DNA of 64,000 bases from Watersipora subatra. Its lineage: Eukaryota > Bryozoa > Gymnolaemata > Cheilostomatida > Watersiporidae. A program made the translations under genes and the position numbers. A model generated the notes under the pieces. That model did not search any database and was not told where the DNA came from. It saw nothing but the letters and a program-made list of their open reading frames with translations. Positions 914-55,645 of this stretch are shown here, piece by piece. Position 1 is the first letter of the stretch; every line of letters starts with the position of its first letter. Location: NCBI RefSeq assembly GCF_963576615.1, contig NC_088716.1, forward strand, positions 63,104,728 through 63,168,727. The letters are read 5' to 3'.

Positions 914-2456
914 GGAAAGGAAAATTGTCATCTTACTCAGACAAGATATGAGCCAAAGCATGGTATTTTACCAAAATATGTATTTTTTGCTAGACTTCTA
1001 TTTTATAAAATGTTGTCGACAAAAATTGCTTTTTGAGAATTTGCGTAACATGAACCTTAAATTAAGCTTTAACTCTCATGGTGTGTAAACTATGCAATGT
1101 TCATGAGTGGTATTACAGAGAAGTTTTGGTAGCACATTTTGGGTGCGGTCAATCGAATTACTATACAAGTTGAGGCAGCATGATTTAAACATTAGTATGA
1201 TACTAATGATCTCTCTCAAGAAAGATAGTAAATATGTGGTCAAATAGAAATGTTATTATCAATTTTTATTCTTAAAATGAAGTGTTATCCGGCGGTTAAT
1301 GCACAGCTGATGCAAGTGGGTACTGCTAGGAACACCTACAACAGTGTTAGTGCTCGTTTTTGCTTGCAAAAATGGCCCAGACCAGCTTAATAGACAGCAG
1401 GCAATTTTAGATCTTGCAGTTTGTTAACAAACGCTGATAGAGGCAGTGTCTGATAGAGAAAAAATACATTTATCAATGAGTATCATAAAGCCAGTGATTG
1501 TCAGTGTAATAAGGTTATACTGAGTATCAACTGCACGCGTAGGATGTGTGTAAGCGACTGATGCTGGCACAAACATAGCTAGCATCTTATAATATGAAGA
1601 TGAGCTGACTCAGCTACTGTAGGGCTGGTAAAATCATTAGCACTCAGTGTGAGCACACACTGACAATGAGGTAATTGGATTAGACAGGTTAGCATTTTGC
1701 ACACTAAAAGCATATATATGTATATGACAACTTTTAATTCAGACTCACAAGCATAACCACTGTATAGGCTACAAATTGTATATACGTTAAAAGAATAGCA
1801 GTTATAATTATTGTTGCAGCTGTTTTCTTCACTTTTGTTTGTATTCAATATAACAAAAAACATCACGATTAATCAAATCTACGCAGTTGTGTCCTCTTGT
1901 CGAGTTAAAACATTGCCATGCAAACGATGATTTACGCTATAATCTCGGTTACCATTCAGTTAGGAGCTGGTCAGAATGATTTTTATCTAAAACACTTAAA
2001 ACGTCTAAAACAAAAACAGTTTTGCCTTCTATGTATTATGCCTTCTTTATATTACCGTTGCATATCTGTATAAAATATTGTAGCCGAGAGTTTTATTCGG
2101 ATAAGCCGTAGCGCCTAAGTAGATTAACCTGCAGACAAGTTGAATTTTTATTTTGAGTGAGATTTTAATTGTTGCTAATAACATGCATTTTTTTGAAAAT
2201 TTACAAAGTTACGCAAAAAGCTGACGTTTTAGAAAAAAACATAATAAAAACTATATGGGTGTAGTCGACCTATATTTTAATTTGCTGCGAACCTACAATG
2301 ACAGTTTTATGATTTGGCAGTTGTTCAGTAGCAGAATCTAGCTACTTGTCCGCCTTATTTAGTTAATATTTAAGGACTCTAGTAATTGAAGCTTGAATTC
2401 GTGATGGCAAGCAGGGCAAACCTTTACGAATACTTACTCTGAATAATTACATTTCA
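914..2456. other. intergenic, 5' flank of the ASXL-like gene
   Basis: No supported exon, RNA gene or array was seen. The segment must hold the promoter and 5' untranslated region of the ASXL-like gene, but no TATA box or other clear core element stands out. A TGA in frame with the gene lies at about 2394-2396 with no intervening ATG. Confidence 0.6.
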
Positions 2457-4487
2457 ATGGCTGTGTCAACTCTGGATAAGGAGAGCAAAAATGGCTGGTC
2501 AGCAAATGGACGTACTATACCTGAGGATGCTGGTGTATCTTCATTGACTGAAAGACTTCATCTGCATGATAAATTGCGTACACATAGCAGATGTGATTTA
2601 GAAACGCCGGCATCGTTGATTGCTAATGTGAATATCAAACAGTTACTTACACCTGCTGCTTTCGATTGTCTACCGACGCACTACCAGAATGAACTTATAC
2701 AGTTGCTACCAGAGACGGATCGCATTTCACTGACAGATGGCGAGACGCCTTTTGCAATGACAGTAAATGCTCTTAGTAATGAATTCTTTGCGAAAAGCTG
2801 CGTAGAGTATCGAGATCGGCTTCGCAATGGAGAATTCTGTATTCCTCCGCCTACCAGCAGTCGGACAGAAGTGAACCCTGTGGTATGGGATTGCGATGCA
2901 GAAGTACTAAAGCAGGTGTATTATTCCAAATTAGGTATACCGAAAGCTGGAGAACCTTTTATTTGTACTTCTCGAAAGAAAACGCTCCTTACACGAACTG
3001 TAAAGGGTGTTAAAAAGGCTTCAAGTAGTAAAGACAATAAGAAAATATACGTTCCCAAGTTAAAGAAGCCTATTACTAGCGGTACGGATTCAAAATCACT
3101 ATTGAAGACTTCTAAAAGCTTACCGGTGAAGACTTTGTCCGCTAATGTCTTTGCCCAAAAGGCTGTTTCTAAAGCCAAGGCAGTGAGTAATCTCAAGACA
3201 CGTGAAAAGGAAAGTGGTTCTATGCCTATTGCTGGTGTGAAGCGACCACGTCCTGACATTACTTCTATTGATGAGCTAAGAACTTCAACTAGCAGTGATG
3301 TTCCAGTACAAGTATCTCATAGTTCTTCTATCACTTCTAAACAACCCAATGAGGTAATTATTACTAAATTTAAGAAAGTTACTGAAAATGCTTCTACTGG
3401 CGCTAAAGTCACAAAGGTGGTGCCCGTTGTAGTTAGAAATCCTCACGGTCAAGTTGTTACTACCCTTGCCAATTGTAACCCTCTCTTGACTCAAATGATC
3501 AAAAGACCTGTAGATTCACGAACCGCTACAATGATGCCTGTAAAGATGAAACGTAAACAGAATCTCCACTCAAAGGACTTTAAGCGTGATAACCAAGTTA
3601 TTGTACAGTTAAAGAGTAAGTCATCAGCCTCCAACAGCAATCGAATAAATCAGGCTGTGACGGAGGTTATATCCAAGGTGAAAAGTTCGAGGGAGCAGCA
3701 TATGAACAATGGTAGCAGCCGACCGATACCAGTTATTGTGACTGTAAATGGATCCAATGGTTCATTGACAAGTAAACTAGTCTCAACTGCAGTGAACATG
3801 GAGCGCTCTAAACTCATCTGCGATTCTTCAAAGAACAATTCTCCAACATTAAACCTTGAAAGAAGCTATCAGATTTGCAAGCAGGTGCTTGGAAAAGCAG
3901 AAGGTGCTACAATAATGGTTGTGGGTCCAGGTGGGAAGAAAAAAATCATCTCCAAACCGGTACGTAATAGGCTCGCTGATGCAGCTGCTTCTAATGCAAA
4001 CAGTGTTACCAGTTCAGATATACCAATATATAGAAACAAACATCGAGGAAAATCCACGCTGACTCTATCTGGTCATGTATTTTTAGCCATGAAGAAGGAT
4101 GAAGATGGCTATGCTACTAAAGCGTACAAACGTAAGACAGCATTTAAGCAGAAACCTAAGAAAAAACTCAGTAAAGTTTCCAGTAAAAAGACTATTGTGC
4201 CAGTCTCTGCTTCCAAACCGTCTGAAGAGACTAGCTTGCAGACTACACCCAGTGCTTCACTATCGTCAGCGAGTAATGTGACTCTCGTTACTCCCTCATT
4301 ATACGCCACTCAGCCTGTCGTTAGTGTGACAGAAAACAAGAGTAGTGTTGTGAAGGACACAAGTCTGCTTGATACTTGTATGTGCAATAAGCGAGCTTTG
4401 ATTATGTGCAGTAGTTGTGGTGCGTTTTGCCATGCTGAATGTGTGAACAAGGATCTCTGTTTGTCTTGTCTTGGCAGGGAGCGGTAA
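2457..4487 (+). CDS. asxl: ASXL-like Polycomb-group protein (DEUBAD + C-terminal PHD)
   Basis: A single open frame of 676 residues. Residues about 50-150 match the ASXH/DEUBAD domain: a leucine-rich stretch (NVNIKQLLTPAAFDCLP, ELIQLLPETDR), then the hallmark ALSNEFF and a YRDRLRNGEF block. In the family this domain binds and activates the BAP1/Calypso deubiquitinase that removes ubiquitin from histone H2A (PR-DUB, nucleus). The middle (about 170-635) is Lys/Ser/Thr-rich, low in complexity and probably disordered. Residues 641-671 form the atypical ASXL PHD finger, with Cys at 641, 643, 651, 654, 658, 662, 668, 671 and His659. The HARE-HTH domain at the N-terminus of vertebrate ASXL proteins is not present in this frame. 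The ATG chosen is the first after an in-frame TGA. DEUBAD and PHD lie in one uninterrupted exon, which is unusual; a 5' coding exon or a retrocopy origin cannot be excluded. The gene converges on the anoctamin gene. Confidence 0.94.
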   Translation: MAVSTLDKESKNGWSANGRTIPEDAGVSSLTERLHLHDKLRTHSRCDLETPASLIANVNIKQLLTPAAFDCLPTHYQNELIQLLPETDRISLTDGETPFAMTVNALSNEFFAKSCVEYRDRLRNGEFCIPPPTSSRTEVNPVVWDCDAEVLKQVYYSKLGIPKAGEPFICTSRKKTLLTRTVKGVKKASSSKDNKKIYVPKLKKPITSGTDSKSLLKTSKSLPVKTLSANVFAQKAVSKAKAVSNLKTREKESGSMPIAGVKRPRPDITSIDELRTSTSSDVPVQVSHSSSITSKQPNEVIITKFKKVTENASTGAKVTKVVPVVVRNPHGQVVTTLANCNPLLTQMIKRPVDSRTATMMPVKMKRKQNLHSKDFKRDNQVIVQLKSKSSASNSNRINQAVTEVISKVKSSREQHMNNGSSRPIPVIVTVNGSNGSLTSKLVSTAVNMERSKLICDSSKNNSPTLNLERSYQICKQVLGKAEGATIMVVGPGGKKKIISKPVRNRLADAAASNANSVTSSDIPIYRNKHRGKSTLTLSGHVFLAMKKDEDGYATKAYKRKTAFKQKPKKKLSKVSSKKTIVPVSASKPSEETSLQTTPSASLSSASNVTLVTPSLYATQPVVSVTENKSSVVKDTSLLDTCMCNKRALIMCSSCGAFCHAECVNKDLCLSCLGRER

Positions 4488-11000: not shown

Positions 11001-14000
11001 TCTGTTTTACTAGCCAACTTTGAGGAATATTACAGCAAGAGTGGTGTAAATACAGTGATCATGCCTTTTGCTATGTAAGCTTTCAGCTGAATGAGAAAAA
11101 GCATTTCAAGTGGACAGACAAATGACTCAGGTAAGTGGCTAAGTGGTAAGGTAAGTGACTAAGGTAAGTGGGTGGATGCTGTTTAATTCATAGACTGATG
11201 AAACAGGACGCTGCCTCGAAACAATCACGAGTGAGCGCTTGTGTTTTAAACAGATAATGAGAAGGCTAAGCAGAGGGACACCTACAGATAATGCTGGCTG
11301 TATCTTTACACTACCCACGTAGTTGAGATGTACGTATGAGCCGATCCTGTAGGAGCCAATAAAACAGACTACATCAACGTGTAGAAAAATTCAACAATTT
11401 AGTTTTTTATTAATACTTTTTTAAGTTTTTGTTGAACAAGTTGAAAAATAAGAAATGTATTAATAACTTATGTATTTTGACAGACCGTAAGTATATTAAA
11501 CTTTGAATAGGTTGACAATTATAGATAGCTGTATAAAAAAGCAGACAACTCACCTTCCTTTGAAAAAAGCTATGTAGATGATAGAGCCGTAATAGTTGGC
11601 AAATTGGAAGAGGTACATTTTGCAAGTGAACGCATCTTCCCATTCACTTTCGTACTTCCAAGTCTCTGAATAAATATTTAAAAAATTCTTCATTAAGCCT
11701 CTATAAAGTTTCAGTAAGTTTTTATACAGTCTCAGTGGGTCTCTATGCACCCTCATTATGTTTCCATACAACCTCATTAGGTCTCTATACACCCTCATTA
11801 AGTTTCTATACAACCTCATTATGTCTCTATACAGCCTCATTATGCCTCTATACAGCAGCTTCATTAGGGCTCTATACACCCTCACTATGTCTCTATACAG
11901 TCTCAACAGGTCTCTATACAGTCTCACTAGGTTTCTTCTCATTCCATTACATTCTCAATCTAACAACAAGTTGGATTTGCTGCCAGCCATTACAACTATC
12001 AAACTATCTGATTGGCTCTGGCTGACTGACCAACTAACAGGAAGCTATGTCTTAAGATGTACTTACCAAGGCTATGTCTTAAGATGTACTTATCAAGGCT
12101 ATGTCTTAAGATGTACTTACCAAGGCTATGTCTTAAGAAGTCTATGTCTTAAGATGTACTTACCAAGGCTATGTCTTAAGATGTACTTATCAAGGCTATG
12201 TCTTAAGATGTACTTACCAAGGCTATGTCTTAAGATGTACTTACCAAGGCTATGTCTTAAGAAGTCTATGTCTTAAGATGTACTTACCAAGGCTGTCTTG
12301 AGATGTACTTACCAAGGCTGTCTTAAGATGTACTTACCAAGGCTATGTCTTAAGATGTACTTATCAAGGCTATGTCTTAAGATGTACTTACCAAGGCTAT
12401 GTCTTAAGATGTACTTACCAAGGCTATGTCTTAAGATGTACTTACCAAGGCTGTCTTGAGATGTACTTACCAAGGCTGTCTTAAGATGTACTTACCAAGG
12501 CTATGTCTTAAGATGTACTTATCAAGGCTATGTCTTAAGATGTACTTACCAAGGCTATGTCTTAAGATGTACTTACCAAGGCTATGTCTTAAGATGTACT
12601 TACCAAGGCTATGTCTTAAGAAGTCTATGTCTTAAGATGTACTTACCAAGGCTGTCTTGAGATGTACTTACCAAGGCTGTCTTAAGATGTACTTACCAAG
12701 GCTATGTCTTAAGACGTACTTACCAAGGCTATGTCTTAAGATGTACTTACCAAGGCTATGTCTTAAGAAGTCTATGTCTTAAGATGTACTTACCAAGGCT
12801 GTCTTGAGATGTACTTACCAAGGCTGTCTTAAGATGTACTTACCAAGGCTATGTCTTAAGACGTACTTACCAAGGCTATGTCTTAAAATGTACTTACCAA
12901 GGTGAGTAAGAAATACAGCCAGTTTTTCGTAGACCTTATTAAGGATAGCAATAGCCACCACAGAGATACAGGCTGCAGTCACTGAGGTAATGAGAGAAGC
13001 CTGAGATCTGATGAGATCATTTCCTTGGTTATAAAGAGGGACGGCGATGAATATCCTGTAGAGAATCACTGACAAGATGGCCGCCAGCACCACACATAGC
13101 TAAAAAAGAATGATTGTAAATGTTAAACCGTCTGCGTAATTATTAGCGTCGCGAACAAACAAATAATTAATAAGTATATGAGCTGCGAGAGACTTCTGGA
13201 ATATTGTAATCCCGACAATTCTAAGTGCACTTGTAGCAAAAAATTATTCCAACACCTACGCCATTTTGAACAGAAATAATTAGCTTATGTAGTGCAAACT
13301 TGAAAATTTTCCATTCAGCTAGTCAACTCACCAGAAAAAAGATGGAGATAATGGAAGGGACAAATCTGAGACATCTCTCTAGTGACGGCATATGTGGCTC
13401 ATAGTCATGGGTAATCGGGTTCTTCTTCTTGCTCACCACTACAGCTTGGTATTCTGGCCGAATGTTTTGCTGAACGGCAACAAAAATAGTTAAAGAAATT
13501 GAGTGAATCAATTCACTCAATTTCTGTATATTTATATACATATTTATTTATAAATAAAATATTTATAAATAAAATATTTATAAGTAAAATTATTATAACT
13601 AAAATGTTTATAATTGTCGCAACAAATAAAACAAAAGCGTGTGGAAAAGCTTACCTCATTTTCTTCAAAATCAGCAACGTCCCAGTCGTACTGAAGCCTG
13701 GCCTGGTGTCTCTTCCAAAACTCCATAAAGAAGGTTGTCCAAAGTGCCATGAAAATAGCAAAGAATATCGTTGCTGGGTTGTCCACGACATAGGTGGCCT
13801 AAAAATTCCAGAATAAAGCATTTAGATACAGTTATTTGACTTGTGTCGCCAAAGCACTGCCTCCAGGCTCTGTTAATGCCATATACAGTATTAGCTCCAT
13901 AGCTTCTCAAGACTACTGACCTTGCTGTAGAGACACGACTGGTTTAAGAACCAGTAAGGGCAGATGTTATCGCACTGAGGACACATGATTATGTCTCCAT

Positions 14001-17000
14001 TTGTTGTACAGATATCTCTACTCGTAGAGTCTGATGAAATCGTAGCGAGACCGTATATGGAAACGATAATACCGACTATTGATGCTGGAACCAACATAAG
14101 GGTGTAGAAACCAAGCCAACTAAAGTATATGCCGGCTTTTTCTCCAAAATAATGCCTAAAAATAGAATATAACCGGGTGTGCATAACGGAGCAAACTTTA
14201 GCGCTCAAAAATACAAAAGTCATACAATCCAGAGGGTTAAAAAGCTATATTTAGCACACATTGTATAGCATTATCGAGTTGAAGGGCTATAGCTCGTGCA
14301 CACGGTATAGCATGATAGGGTTAAAAAGCTTTATCTAGCACACACACACCGTATAGCATCATAGGGTTGCTCTTTCATAAAAACTCCTGGTCGAGCCCAT
14401 TCATAGTACAGCTCTTGTCGTTTATTCTCAGGCTTTTGAATTCCATCACCTTCAAGTTTGTATGGCCCGTCATGCAAAGGGTAGTAGGAGACGATTATTC
14501 CCTGATTGAAAAGTCGTCGCACACCTGGATGGATAAATCAAATACTACATGCTATGTGGTAACTACACTTTCCTTCTAATAAAATACGTATCTCATCCAA
14601 TGTTCATAACATAATTTAAATAAATTATAGAATATGTAAACTATAAAACTATAGAAAAGTAGACTATAGAATAAGTAGATTATAGAATAAGTAGACTACA
14701 GAATAAGTAGACTACAGAATAGGTAGACTATAGAATAAGTAGACTACAGAATAAGTAGACTACAGAATAGGTAGACTATAGAATAAGTAGACTATAGAAT
14801 AAGTAGACTATAGAATAAGTAAACTATAGAATAAGTAGACTATAGAATAAGTAGACTATAGAATAATTAGACTATAGAATAAGTAGATTATAGAATAAGT
14901 AGACTATAGAATAAGTAAACTATAGAATAAGTAGACTATAGAATAAGTAGACTATAGAATAAGTAGACTATAGAATAAGTAAACTATAGAATAAGTAAAC
15001 TATAGAATAAGTAGACTATAGGATAAGTACACTATAGAATAAGTAGACTATAGAATAAGTAGACTATAGAATATGTAGACTATAGAATAAGTAGACTATA
15101 GAATAAGTAGACTATAGAATAAGTAGACTATAGAATAAGTAGACTATAGTATAAGTAGAATATTGAATAAATAGTCTATAGACTACTTATTCAATAGTCT
15201 ATAGGTTCAATTGAAGTAAATCCTTCAATTTACTTATTCTATAATAGAATAAGTAAATTGAAGGATTTCAAAGAACAATACATATTTAACTATCTGATAT
15301 CTTCTTACCAAATTGCTGTTGCTCTTCTCCATATCTAGTCCTGAGTAGCACCTCGTGCACCATTCGACCTCGCTGAGCATTTGAGAAGAAGTTAGGTTTT
15401 GGGACGTCTGGTCCATCATATCCAATAAACCTATAATAACAAGTCATAGCAGGAGTCCATCGTATTTAATAAACCTATAATAAAAAGTCATAGCAGGTGT
15501 CCATCATATCCAATAAACCTATAATAAAAAGTCATAGCAGGTGTCCATCATATCCAATAAACCTATAATAATAAGTCAGCAGAAGTGGTAAGTATATTAA
15601 ATTGTTGTGGCTCCCTATGAATAGTTCTCCACAGACTTAGAAACAGGCTTACTCCCCCATCCTTAATTAAACTCTCCCAGTTCCTAATTGGTTTGCTGGA
15701 CTCTCTATGTCAGGACTAAGGCGCTCATGCAATGTGAAGATCAAGTGATTTTTTGTGAGCTGAGCTAGAGAATTTAAGGAGCTAAAGTCTCACAAGGCTT
15801 GCTGGTGAATTTTAAGACTTCCCTGCTGAGATTCTAAGGCTATAAGAAATAAAGCCAGCCATGCTGTCTCTAGAGCTCTCTATGAGAAATTAGTCTCTGA
15901 CACATATCGTAACTGATTTTGTTCAATTGATGAGCCAGAGCAGAGGAAACCCTCCTACCACTTCTGGCATGAGATATGTATTTGGTAAAGCATTTCATTT
16001 ATCGCATGGCACTTACTCACGACCATAGTAGAACCGGCAGCAGACCTTACATGATGCCAAATGATCTTTTTGAGGCAGCTGTAGAAGCAAGTGTAGAACT
16101 ATGCGTACACACTGTAGTTAGTCATATAGCAGTACACTGTCATTTTATGGCTACTCTAAACCAAACTTAGCATTACGATTAGGATTGTTATCAATACGCC
16201 TTTTTACATATGGTACTTAGGCTATTATGAATGTAAAGGACAATGACCCGTTTGAATAGACCGTTATAAAGGATATACTTTTACCAACCTCTGTTACAAT
16301 GAAGAGATTAAATTAAAAGAACTTTTATTAAACGCATACGGACTCATTTATATTATACGAAATGAATAATTAAAGCTCTAGAGATACAGTATACTATGTG
16401 ATAATATTTTTATTTTATTATATACAAAATAAAACATTATATTCATTAATGTATTTTGTCAAGGTTGCTTAATACTATTATAGTATTTCCTTATGCTCGC
16501 TGAGATGTAAAAGGTCTCCCTCAACCTTCCTTCAATTTATTCTATTTTCTGTTCACCCTCCTCTTCCAATAGCTTTGCTTTATTTACTAACATTCCTGTA
16601 GAAATGTCTATGAAATTCAATTTTGTGTAATTAAGAGTTACTTTCTCTCTATTCTGAATATTGGAAACCGAAAGCTGAGGTAAATAGAGCAAAGCTCTAT
16701 CTATAGAGGTAAGAAAACATTTTCAAGCATGCGATCTAGTTCATTTCTCTGTACAAACATGTATGTCACAATATCAACAAAGGGAATGTAGAAATTTAAT
16801 TTTTGAAAAGTTGACAAGTACAAAGTGTTGCTTTAGAGAGTTAAGTTTTATTATTATTGGGTAGAGGTCTGCCTCAAGTCTTACAAAAGTCAGCATTAGT
16901 ATTTTATACCTTCTTTGTTGACCTTCATTATGAACATACAAGGATTATTAGGTCTGCATTTCCTGAACAGGACAACCCACGAGGTACATTTCTACTGACA

Positions 17001-20000
17001 CGTTCTCCAGACCAACAACTATAGCTTCAATTGATATCTCTATACAAAAACAGAGCAAAATTTTCTCTTACGTCACAACACTGCCAAATATTACGACGAG
17101 TAGGACTGTAGAGATGATGCAACAGCCTAGTAGCAGCGTAGCAACTTGTTTATAAATGTCAGATAGGCATGACATTCTAAGTGGCAGGGAGCGTAAGTAA
17201 AAGGCAAAGCTTCAACGCGCAGTTTTTATAGTACAAAAATATATAGCGAGGAAATGAGATGGCGGAAAAAATTACTATTCCGAGATTGTTTTCAACTACT
17301 TGATAAGCTAATAGTTCCGGAAAAGTCAAAAGTCTTGCAAAACGCACTATGATTTTCATCCTCGGCATATGCCACTTGAGCTATGGTTATAAAGGCTGTG
17401 GCTTGTCACTATATAAAACAAAACCTGGTTATTGGTCTGAAAACTGAAGCAAAAACAACCGGCTTTGGGAAAACAAGCTAGCGTAAAGCTGTGCAAAGCA
17501 CACAAACCGTGCTTGACACAAGCGCTATAAAACCTGTTTGGGCAGCATACCATCTGTAATTAAACATTGAGAATAAATATACAGGTACGAGCATGCTAAA
17601 CTGAAGTACATGGTTTGCTACTAAAAGAAATTAACACAGTCTGGTAGAAAACAAAAGAGTCACTAGCTCACAGCGCTATCTGGTTATGGCTGGGCAAGCA
17701 GTTACAGCTATGCTACGTGCTAGTTGCAATGGGAAACCTATTGCATGCTGAAACACAAAGAAACAAACACAGTGTAAAGAAAGAAACTGGAGTGCTATGC
17801 TAGCGGAGTCGTCTTCTTAACACACAGTCTTTGAAGAGTATTTGAGAGATAACGAATTTATACAGAATGATCTATTACTTTAAAAGGTTTATATGGGTGT
17901 GCAGAGAAACTCGATCTTTACATGAACTATACCTCCCATCAAATATAACATCTATGTTAACCTTTGTGAATTGTCTAAACATTTTACAGACTCCCGAAGA
18001 CCAATAGAAAAAGACGATGAAACCTCGAGCTCCGCAGTGAACTTACTTCCCGTCTTTAAAGAAAGGAGAAGTGAAGAAGTCTTCTTCCTCCTCAACGTTA
18101 GGCTTGAACACACCGGTTGGAGAGCAGCATTGAGCAGCGATGGGGGTGTCTATGTCATTCACCTATATAATAGGCAGCATAATTCTATCATGGTACTAAG
18201 TCTGACTTCAGACATATAACTTTATTGAGTACAATATAGAAAAGCGACTAGACACACAGACTGTTGCTATCGCATATCCTTGATTATACACGTAACAATA
18301 TAAATATTCTAACGATACTTCAGCAACAATATTAGAATAGAATTAGAATAGTTTTAAAGGTTGACTTGCAACAAAATTCACATTACAGTTAATTAGTATC
18401 AAAAGATTCACCGTGTCTTACTCTGTTGTGTTGTAGGTGCAAAATATGTGGAAATGTGATTACAAGCTCTTAAAAGCTAAAAAAACGAAAAGCCGCCGTA
18501 GATTGGAATCTCTTTATTTCTCTGACGTAGTCATTACATTTGGTTATTGTCTTGTCACGTGATGTTCTCGCGTGAATTGAAAGGCCAATAAAAAGCTCAA
18601 TATAAAGCTTGTCGTAGCACTAGTTTATGACAAACACTTCGGGTTTTACCGAAGACCCCGTATCAAATATAGATGCTCGCTACTTTACAGTTTTATTTCG
18701 GCTTGATCTAATTGTCAAGTCGTAATCTGATCATGCGACCCAATACTTCGCAAATAATTTCTGCAGCGCTTTTCGATTATCACAAGTGACCAACAGCCTC
18801 GTCATGATTATCAAACAATGATATGTACTCCTTCGAGCTAAGGTTAAAAATTAAACGAATTTTTACGGTAAGTTATAAGATATCACTGCTAAAAGTGACA
18901 GCATTACAATGACGATAAAACAGACGCGTAAGAACAATAGACATGGTTTTATTGAATGTGTGAAGTATAATTGTGAAAATAGTTCGACGAATAAGGTTGC
19001 ATGAAAGTGTAAACAGAAGCCATCTCCTACAACTACGTCCCATTTGAGCCGTTTTGGAAAAAGAATCCAAACTACGGCGGTCTCATGTGACTGCGATTAA
19101 TTGTTCGTTTTTTAGCTTTTAAGAGCTTGTAATCACATTTCCACATATTTGGCACCTACAACACAGTAGAGTAAGACATGGTGAACCTTTTGATACCAAA
19201 TAACTGTAATGTGAATTTTCTTGCAAGTCAACCTTTAAGAATGTAAGGTTGCAAGTAAGCGTTTAATATATTTTTCAACATGACGCCAATCATTTAGTAG
19301 CGTCGGTAGTGGCTGCCGGTAGTGGCTGCCGGTGTGGCTGTAGTGGCAACAAAATATTTGCACGACATGTCAGTGATGGATTCCATTGGTGGGTGTAGTC
19401 AGGCCTTCACTCCCACAATACCAGAACAACAGAGCTGACTTACTTTCAGAATAACGGCGATGACTTACTTTTAAAATAACAAGGTTGACATACTTCCAGA
19501 ATAACAGAGTTGACATACTTCCAGAATAACAGAGTTGACTTACCCGAATAGGCATCTTGATTTTGAGAACTTCGGCGTAGACGAGGCAGAGTTTCCAGGG
19601 CATGTGAACTTTACAGTAGTAGGTGGCCATGTCTTGGGAAAACTAAAATACAAATAAGAAAATAGCGGAGTGAGGAAATGTGCTAGCGTTCTGGAAATAA
19701 GATAGTATTTCATCATATTTTGTATCTAATTATAGTCAGATTGTAGATTGTTTGGGAGATTTATGATAAATGCATATGTGCAAAAAACTCACAAAAATTA
19801 TTCATCAACACTGTCGCAAACCCTTGTACCGAAATCTCATCAACAAATTTAACCATTTTTGTGTAGAGTCGTTTAAGTATAATGATGATACAAAACACAT
19901 ATAAACATATTTAAATATGTTATCAAGTCTTTGAAAGGTTACTGCAATATCTTAAAACTAAACCATCTGATCGGATTATACATAAATAGACAGACTATTT

Positions 20001-51564: not shown

Positions 51565-51840
51565 CTTACCACACAAACTTGAGTCGCACTTACCTGCAGA
51601 TAGTAAATTTGAATCAGTTTTACCTGCTGGTAGTAAACTTGAATCAGACTTATTTGCAGGTATTAAACACTAATCAGACTCATCTGCAGGTAAAAAACAT
51701 GTGATCAGCTTTACCTGGAGGTAGTACACATAAATAAGACTTACCTGCTGGTAGTGAACATGAACAAGACTTCCCTGCTAGTAGTAAACATGAACCAGCA
51801 ATACCTGCACATCAAACAAAGCCATTCTTGAGTGAAATTC
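51565..51840 (-). repeat. degenerate ~31-bp repeat carrying a donor consensus
   Basis: About eight copies. On the minus strand the best ones read GCAG|GTAAGTCT, others GTAAAA, GTATTG or GTATTA. The array begins exactly at a donor-like site after ATGGCTTTGTTTGATGTGCAG|GTATTG (51805-51825), which could be the end of a small start-codon exon (MALFDVQ). Copies are much more diverged than in anoctamin intron 10. Confidence 0.75.
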
Positions 51841-55088: not shown

Positions 55089-55645
55089 TGTGGTAAGTAA
55101 CAACTTCATGTAGACACCAGCTAAAATAGTAATAGGTAAGTAACAGCTACATGTAGACACCAGCTAAAATAGTAACAGGTAAGTAACAGCTACATGTAGA
55201 CACCAGCTAAAATAGTAACAGGTAAGTAACAGCTACATGTAGACACCAGCTAAAATAGTAACAGGTAAGTAACAGCTACATGTAGACACCAGCTAAAATA
55301 GTAACAGGTAAGTAACAGCTACATGTAGACACCAGCTAAAATAGTAACAGGTAAGTAACAGCTGCATGTAGACACCAGCTAAAATAGTAACAGGTAAGTA
55401 ACAGCTACATGTAGACACCAGCTAATATAGTAACAGGTAAGTAACAGCTACATGTAAACACCAGCTAAACATAGTAACAGGTAAGTAACAGCTACATGTA
55501 GACACCAGCTAAAATAGTAACAGGTAAGTAACAGCTACATGTAGACACTAGCTAATATAGTAACAGGTAAGTAACAACTTCATGTAGACACCAGCTAAAA
55601 TAGTAACAGGTAAATAACAGCTACATGTAGACACCAGCTAAAATG
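55089..55645 (+). repeat. 43-bp minisatellite carrying CAG|GTAAGT in each unit
   Basis: About 13 copies of a unit containing AACAGGTAAGTAACAGCTAC. Ten units hold the perfect donor consensus CAGGTAAGT. The first reads GTGGTAAGT, the second TAGGTAAGT and the last CAGGTAAAT. The array starts at ATGAAATGTG|GTAAGT, which may be the original splice donor of a plus-strand, probably untranslated, exon (upstream frames are closed). Confidence 0.93.

Follow-up and report, generated by a model that had tools for sequence, protein, structure and literature searches.

The 64,000-bp stretch of the Watersipora subatra genome that was analyzed here, hereafter called the window, contains exons on its minus strand that match P0001, the RefSeq protein annotated as "anoctamin-4-like isoform X2 [Watersipora subatra]." Exact mapping to P0001 placed 21 coding blocks; at least one further short block, with residues 59-66, has no placement. 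For 19 of the 20 joins between neighboring blocks there is a single GT-AG solution that restores P0001 exactly, while the remaining one is unsolved because residues 59-66 are encoded by exon sequence that is unplaced. Beside the anoctamin gene, on the plus strand, a long open frame at 2397-4484 carries an Asx homology domain (E = 9.3e-18) and an Asx PHD finger (E = 2e-8), and it appears to belong to an ASXL-type gene. The intron on which this study focuses is 1,232 bp long and lies between two exons of the minus strand: the upstream exon at 12898..13099, which encodes residues 501-567 of P0001, carries the initial base of the codon that follows, and ends in ...VFLTHL, and the downstream exon at 11554..11665, whose first base is 11665 and which completes the junction codon. 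In the first-pass annotation the upstream exon was labeled exon 10, but the mapping to P0001 makes it the 13th of the 21 placed coding blocks. By the same exact mapping, the donor reads ACCTTG/GTAAGTAC, with the slash marking the junction and 12898 as the last exon base. The protein falls at this point into the loop between helices 4 and 5, which we take to be cytosolic. This placement, proposed in the first-pass annotation, is borne out by an alignment in which the junction fits without gaps between LTKI and EVPKTE of TMEM16A (6bgi).

The intron begins with a tandem array of its own donor, occupying about 12044-12902 on the minus strand. Tandem Repeats Finder reports these bounds, and unit reading resolves the array into 30 units of 27, 25, or 43 bp, each of which contains CCTTG(G/A)TAAGT, with the motifs running from 12902 to 12071 on the minus strand at spacings of 27, 25, or 43 bp. 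The array begins with 5 exonic bases, and the 27-bp unit is composed of these 5 bases, CCTTG, and 22 intronic bases, spanning the exon-intron boundary. The donor of the units is CCTTG/GTAAGT in 26 of the 30 and CCTTGATAAGT, with GAT, in the other four, in agreement with the copy number and the split between GT and GAT given at first pass. Unit 1, the authentic donor, lies at 12876..12902 with its last exon base at 12898 and has an ACATTTT that is private to it. GAT is found in unit 14 (12501..12527), where it stands for GGT and the donor is lost, in unit 20 (12343..12369), whose block is identical to that of unit 14, in unit 26 (12169..12195), and in unit 29 (12072..12098), all on the minus strand. 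On the sense strand, the 1,232-bp intron contains 26 GTRAGT motifs, or 21.1 per kb, versus 0.76 per kb in those parts of the window that lie outside arrays, and by this density the donor array is far from chance. P0001 reads ...VFLTHL-ETWKYE..., that is, the annotated product joins unit 1 to the next exon and contains no insert from the downstream units, where donor use is judged from this one annotated protein of a cluster with 4 member sequences. Computed joins agree with the first-pass claim that the second and third donors remain in frame: joining from unit 2 adds 27 nt and from unit 3 adds 54 nt (9 or 18 residues), both without a stop. Joins from units 4-30 add 79-831 nt, and a stop is found in all 27 of them (23 of these units have GT), so at most three proteins are possible from the donor array.

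The sequences of the units also bear on the history of the array. Units 1-5 and 6-10 are identical at 146 of 147 positions, the sole difference being a single substitution private to unit 1, and units 11-16, which include the GAT unit 14, are identical at 158 of 158 positions to units 17-22, which include the GAT unit 20. Four independent losses of the donor by GAT were considered and dropped, since the blocks holding units 14 and 20 are identical; the GAT change is at least partly copied, rather than having arisen four times. The identical blocks suggest that the array has changed recently, and such recent block copying (158 of 158) leads to the prediction that its length is polymorphic. The same intron contains a second array on the minus strand, at 11689..11936, with a 21-bp unit in about 10 copies (Tandem Repeats Finder) and an edge 24 bp from exon base 11665. 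TAATGA occurs at 7 places in it and might serve as a branch point. The two arrays account for 1,102 bp (89%) of the 1,232-bp intron. The 130 bp outside them resemble in size the three introns directly upstream, which are 232, 185, and 122 bp long. The intron suggests a way in which a short intron can expand several-fold, to 1,232 bp, while leaving the annotated protein without a trace of it.

Three further arrays of the minus strand reach across splice junctions in the anoctamin gene. The first, at 19421..19543, has a 25-bp unit in about 5 diverged copies and lies at the donor that follows ...KMPIR, with 19544 as the last exon base. The next, at 14233..14350 (14233-14345 by Tandem Repeats Finder), consists of 2.7 degenerate copies of a 42-bp unit at a donor whose last exon base is 14350, and its later copies also repeat the exonic letters preceding the donor. 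The last, at 15411..15578, lies on the acceptor side and comprises four copies of TATAG/GTTTATTGGATATGATGGAC, the third of them diverged, in a 44-bp unit; it includes about 20 exonic bases, and the first exon base is 15430. At all three of these arrays (19544, 14350, and 15430) the junction of P0001 corresponds to the exon-proximal copy. Two other arrays of the gene end 18 and 24 bp before acceptors. A 16-bp array of 33 copies at 14648-15182 has an acceptor-like unit, CTACTTATTCTATAGT, on the sense strand. The array at 51588-51809 (minus strand), which lies upstream of 50783, where the first placed coding exon is found, has units with CTGCAG/GTAAGT-like sense letters and could lie at the donor of an untranslated exon. 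A 43-bp array at 55092-55644, likewise upstream of that exon, has about 13 copies that contain GGTAAGTA when read on the plus strand, which is the antisense strand of the anoctamin gene. In total, minisatellite arrays make up 15,343 of the 64,000 bp of the window (24%), and elsewhere in the genome 20 pieces taken at round coordinates (2.5 kb each, 50,000 bp in all) contain 4,825 bp of arrays, of which 2,246 bp come from one piece. When a strong tandem copy is defined as at least 17 matching letters of 20 in 20-letter windows, one is found at 19.6% of 3,000 random intronic points and at none of 1,745 exonic points, which is expected if exons are protected. We read this as dense intronic minisatellites that are kept out of exons by selection, with some reaching over the boundary.

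Similar arrays exist elsewhere in the genome. When the donor array was used as a DNA query, at least three other places were found, at 65-67% identity (L002, L003, and L004). L002, with a 24-bp unit, and L004, with a 27-bp unit, are different donor arrays that each start at a likely coding exon, and L003 has no GGTAAGT in it. A pattern of three GGTAAGT separated by gaps of 12-40 gave 10,882 matches versus 1,773 for the reversed pattern, with 741 versus 429 for gaps of 20-21 and 428 versus 93 for gaps of 23-24, counts that include overlapping matches and are dominated by long arrays. Among the matches listed, which cover C1 and part of C2, 13 arrays were distinguished: five from gaps of 12-40, including the one from gaps of 20-21, and eight from gaps of 23-24. 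Four of the 13 (L005, L037, L058, and L064) lie at a likely coding exon. Counted as not at a coding exon are L011, L035, L036, L059, L060, L061, L062, and L065, together with L063, which is ambiguous; L011 is intronic, with its first GGTAAGT about 330 bp past a likely donor. The firmest of the other loci is L058, a donor array at an exon of IFT172, as judged by homology: the match to IFT172 covers the entire exon (E = 2e-13), and it gained no residue when the query was lengthened by 11 residues from the first unit. At L064 (C2:11599016-11599859 and upstream), a 31-bp donor array has more than 25 copies, and its unit holds about 19 exonic bases. The exon there, possibly from a MOCOS-like gene, has a weak match to class-V aminotransferases (E = 0.025 and 0.027) that ends at the donor even with a longer query, and E is about 0.5 against cysteine desulfurases of the PDB. 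The exon calls at L005, L037, L002, and L004 were made from open frames, acceptor and donor signals, and reading by eye; a Pfam search with the exon peptides preceding five other arrays returned no family. Scoring the flanks by codon usage was too weak to decide, since 18 held-out real exons gave p values from 0.009 to 0.58, and exons were therefore called by reading and homology. The scores were 0.020 for L001 (the value of a locus in the training set), 0.022 for L002, 0.079 for L004, 0.046 for L005, and 0.127 for L037, and 0.43 for L011, 0.80 for L035, and 0.76 for L036, the downstream flank of the last giving 0.025. The 34-bp array L005-L010 (C1:1754476-1754718) has a pyrimidine-rich CTACAG directly before GTAAGT in its units, which in our view resemble the zero-length exons of recursive splicing.

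The donor array of the anoctamin gene is very probably a boundary-spanning minisatellite of the "mirage" type, whose ordinary growth was stopped at the exon by selection and whose extra donors are bystanders. Its origin would be a tandem duplication of a 27-bp stretch composed of the last 5 exonic and the first 22 intronic bases of the anoctamin-4-like gene. Block amplification, via slippage or unequal exchange, would then have followed, placing a donor copy in every unit, and selection would have removed growth into the exon so that the edge of the array stays at the splice junction. Splicing would normally take the exon-proximal copy, leaving the other 25 intact donors as bystanders, and the use of any unit beyond the third would result in a premature stop. 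We infer this duplication history and the bystander role because every unit carries 5 exonic bases, because P0001 uses the first copy and the exon-proximal copy is likewise used at the three other boundary arrays, and because blocks of units are nearly identical and stops lie past the third unit. The dense minisatellites, the exons free of tandem copies, and the like layout at L058, L002, L004, L005, L037, and L064 argue for the same explanation.

One alternative is regulated production of length isoforms, with donors 2 and 3 in use at an appreciable frequency and the helix 4-5 loop gaining 9 or 18 residues. A comparable case is the minisatellite of human IFI6 (6-16), reportedly studied by Turri et al. 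in 1995. Passages of PMC4526556 describe two downstream repeat units of IFI6 that serve as donors and give rise to three mRNAs, whereas the annotated anoctamin product uses unit 1. Donors 2 and 3 are equal to donor 1 across the 8 intronic bases GTAAGTAC, and the frame is kept without a stop. The first-pass proposal that the array encodes length isoforms can thus stand for these two donors, but not for the rest: units 4-30 all lead to stops, and because 23 of the 26 intact donors do so, making isoforms is not what the full array is built for. When the exon and its continuation into the array served as a protein query, none of 30 candidates matched, although length limits make this a weak test, and we regard regulated isoforms as distinctly improbable. 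Another function suggested at first pass was that of a landing array for U1, in which many U1 sites would protect a long transcript from premature polyadenylation. Donor-like sites guard long introns that contain cryptic poly(A) signals, and the 26 sense-strand GTRAGT in 1,232 bp (21.1 per kb) would provide such sites at high density. The array seems, however, poorly placed for that role. Its intron has no AWTAAA on the sense strand, while the longest placed intron, of 17,953 bp, has 32 AWTAAA and only 10 GTRAGT (0.56 per kb). In addition, the array at 55092-55644 carries its 12 GTRAGT on the strand antisense to the anoctamin gene and none on the sense strand. Protection by U1 is accordingly a most remote prospect.

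A third alternative, which competes with the bystander reading, is that minisatellites of this genome arise preferentially at splice donors, for instance via breaks or R-loops where introns start, so that the donors are more than bystanders of array growth. Arrays lie within 5 bp of a junction in 4 of 42 merged arrays of the gene (permutation mean 1.28, P = 0.035), within 10 bp in 4 of 42 (mean 1.46, P = 0.054), and within 30 bp in 7 of 42 (mean 2.14, P = 0.005); when the threshold for calling arrays was relaxed (46 arrays), the P values were 0.048, 0.071, and 0.0085, respectively. At some tolerances this junction contact is above the random expectation; arrays might be seeded at boundaries, which weighs against the bystander reading. 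The genome-wide excess of triple GGTAAGT over the reversed control, 6.1 to 1 by match count with each motif occurring 10 times outside arrays in the window, points the same way, although long arrays dominate the counts and match counts differ from array counts. Of the 13 arrays sampled, four have a likely coding exon at their start, whereas nine, one of them unclear, lie away from any recognized exon. Attraction of arrays by splice sites was not upheld by the 20-letter window test, although the permutation of junction contact points in its favor. In the window test a strong tandem copy was found at one donor and one acceptor, out of 19 of each, and was thus rarer at junctions (2 of 38) than at random intronic points (19.6%); the test is conservative because two of the three donor arrays of the gene score only 13 and 15. 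Preferred seeding at donors seems unlikely on this balance.

The closest known kind appears to be the "mirage" minisatellites of amphioxus, and on its sequence features the array can be filed as a mirage-type minisatellite in a bryozoan. As described in passages of PMC3087553, amphioxus mirages occur in Adh3 and in the globin genes BflGb6 and BflGb9, their tandem units extend across the exon-intron boundary at the 5' or 3' ends of introns, and many of them contain splice signals, with no apparent interference with regular splicing reported by the authors. The same passages give 10-72 bp for the Adh3 units and report that cluster edges are excluded from homogenization and that length is unstable (PMC3087553). 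The anoctamin array is similar in that its unit spans the boundary and 26 of 30 units keep GTAAGT, and in that both intron ends are hit, given the acceptor array at 15411-15578 in the same gene. It differs from what those passages describe in having 30 units with 26 intact donors, in the presence of four boundary arrays in one gene, in the similar loci elsewhere in the genome, and in its bryozoan host. Tandem duplication at exon-intron boundaries, splice sites included, is known to alter gene structure, according to the portions of PMC2812944 on which we draw; the present array shares the duplicated boundary, but an existing intron has grown and no new intron is evident. PMC4974935 and PMC3443670 appear to deal with such changes of gene structure as well. 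In a limited literature search, arrays of this boundary kind were found described, in the parts of the sources covered, only for amphioxus and one human gene. A search on bryozoan tandem repeats and introns gave, by title, only mitochondrial work, and we claim no wider absence from it.

The anoctamin array adds a bryozoan to this boundary-array kind of repeat. It is conceivable, though doubtful, that hundreds of introns of W. subatra have an array of their own donor at the start and that the spliceosome still takes the exon-proximal copy among up to dozens, "hundreds" being a very rough figure derived from 5 arrays within the initial 4.3 Mb of a single chromosome and from the 4 of 13 arrays at likely exons. 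Experiments on how one of several equal donors is chosen usually employ engineered copies, and many natural arrays of near-identical donors at intron starts would let that choice be measured from ordinary RNA reads. If hundreds of introns are indeed built in this manner, the genome would be a natural experiment on the choice among equal donors, and array length would make splicing error and nonsense decay vary from one individual to another.
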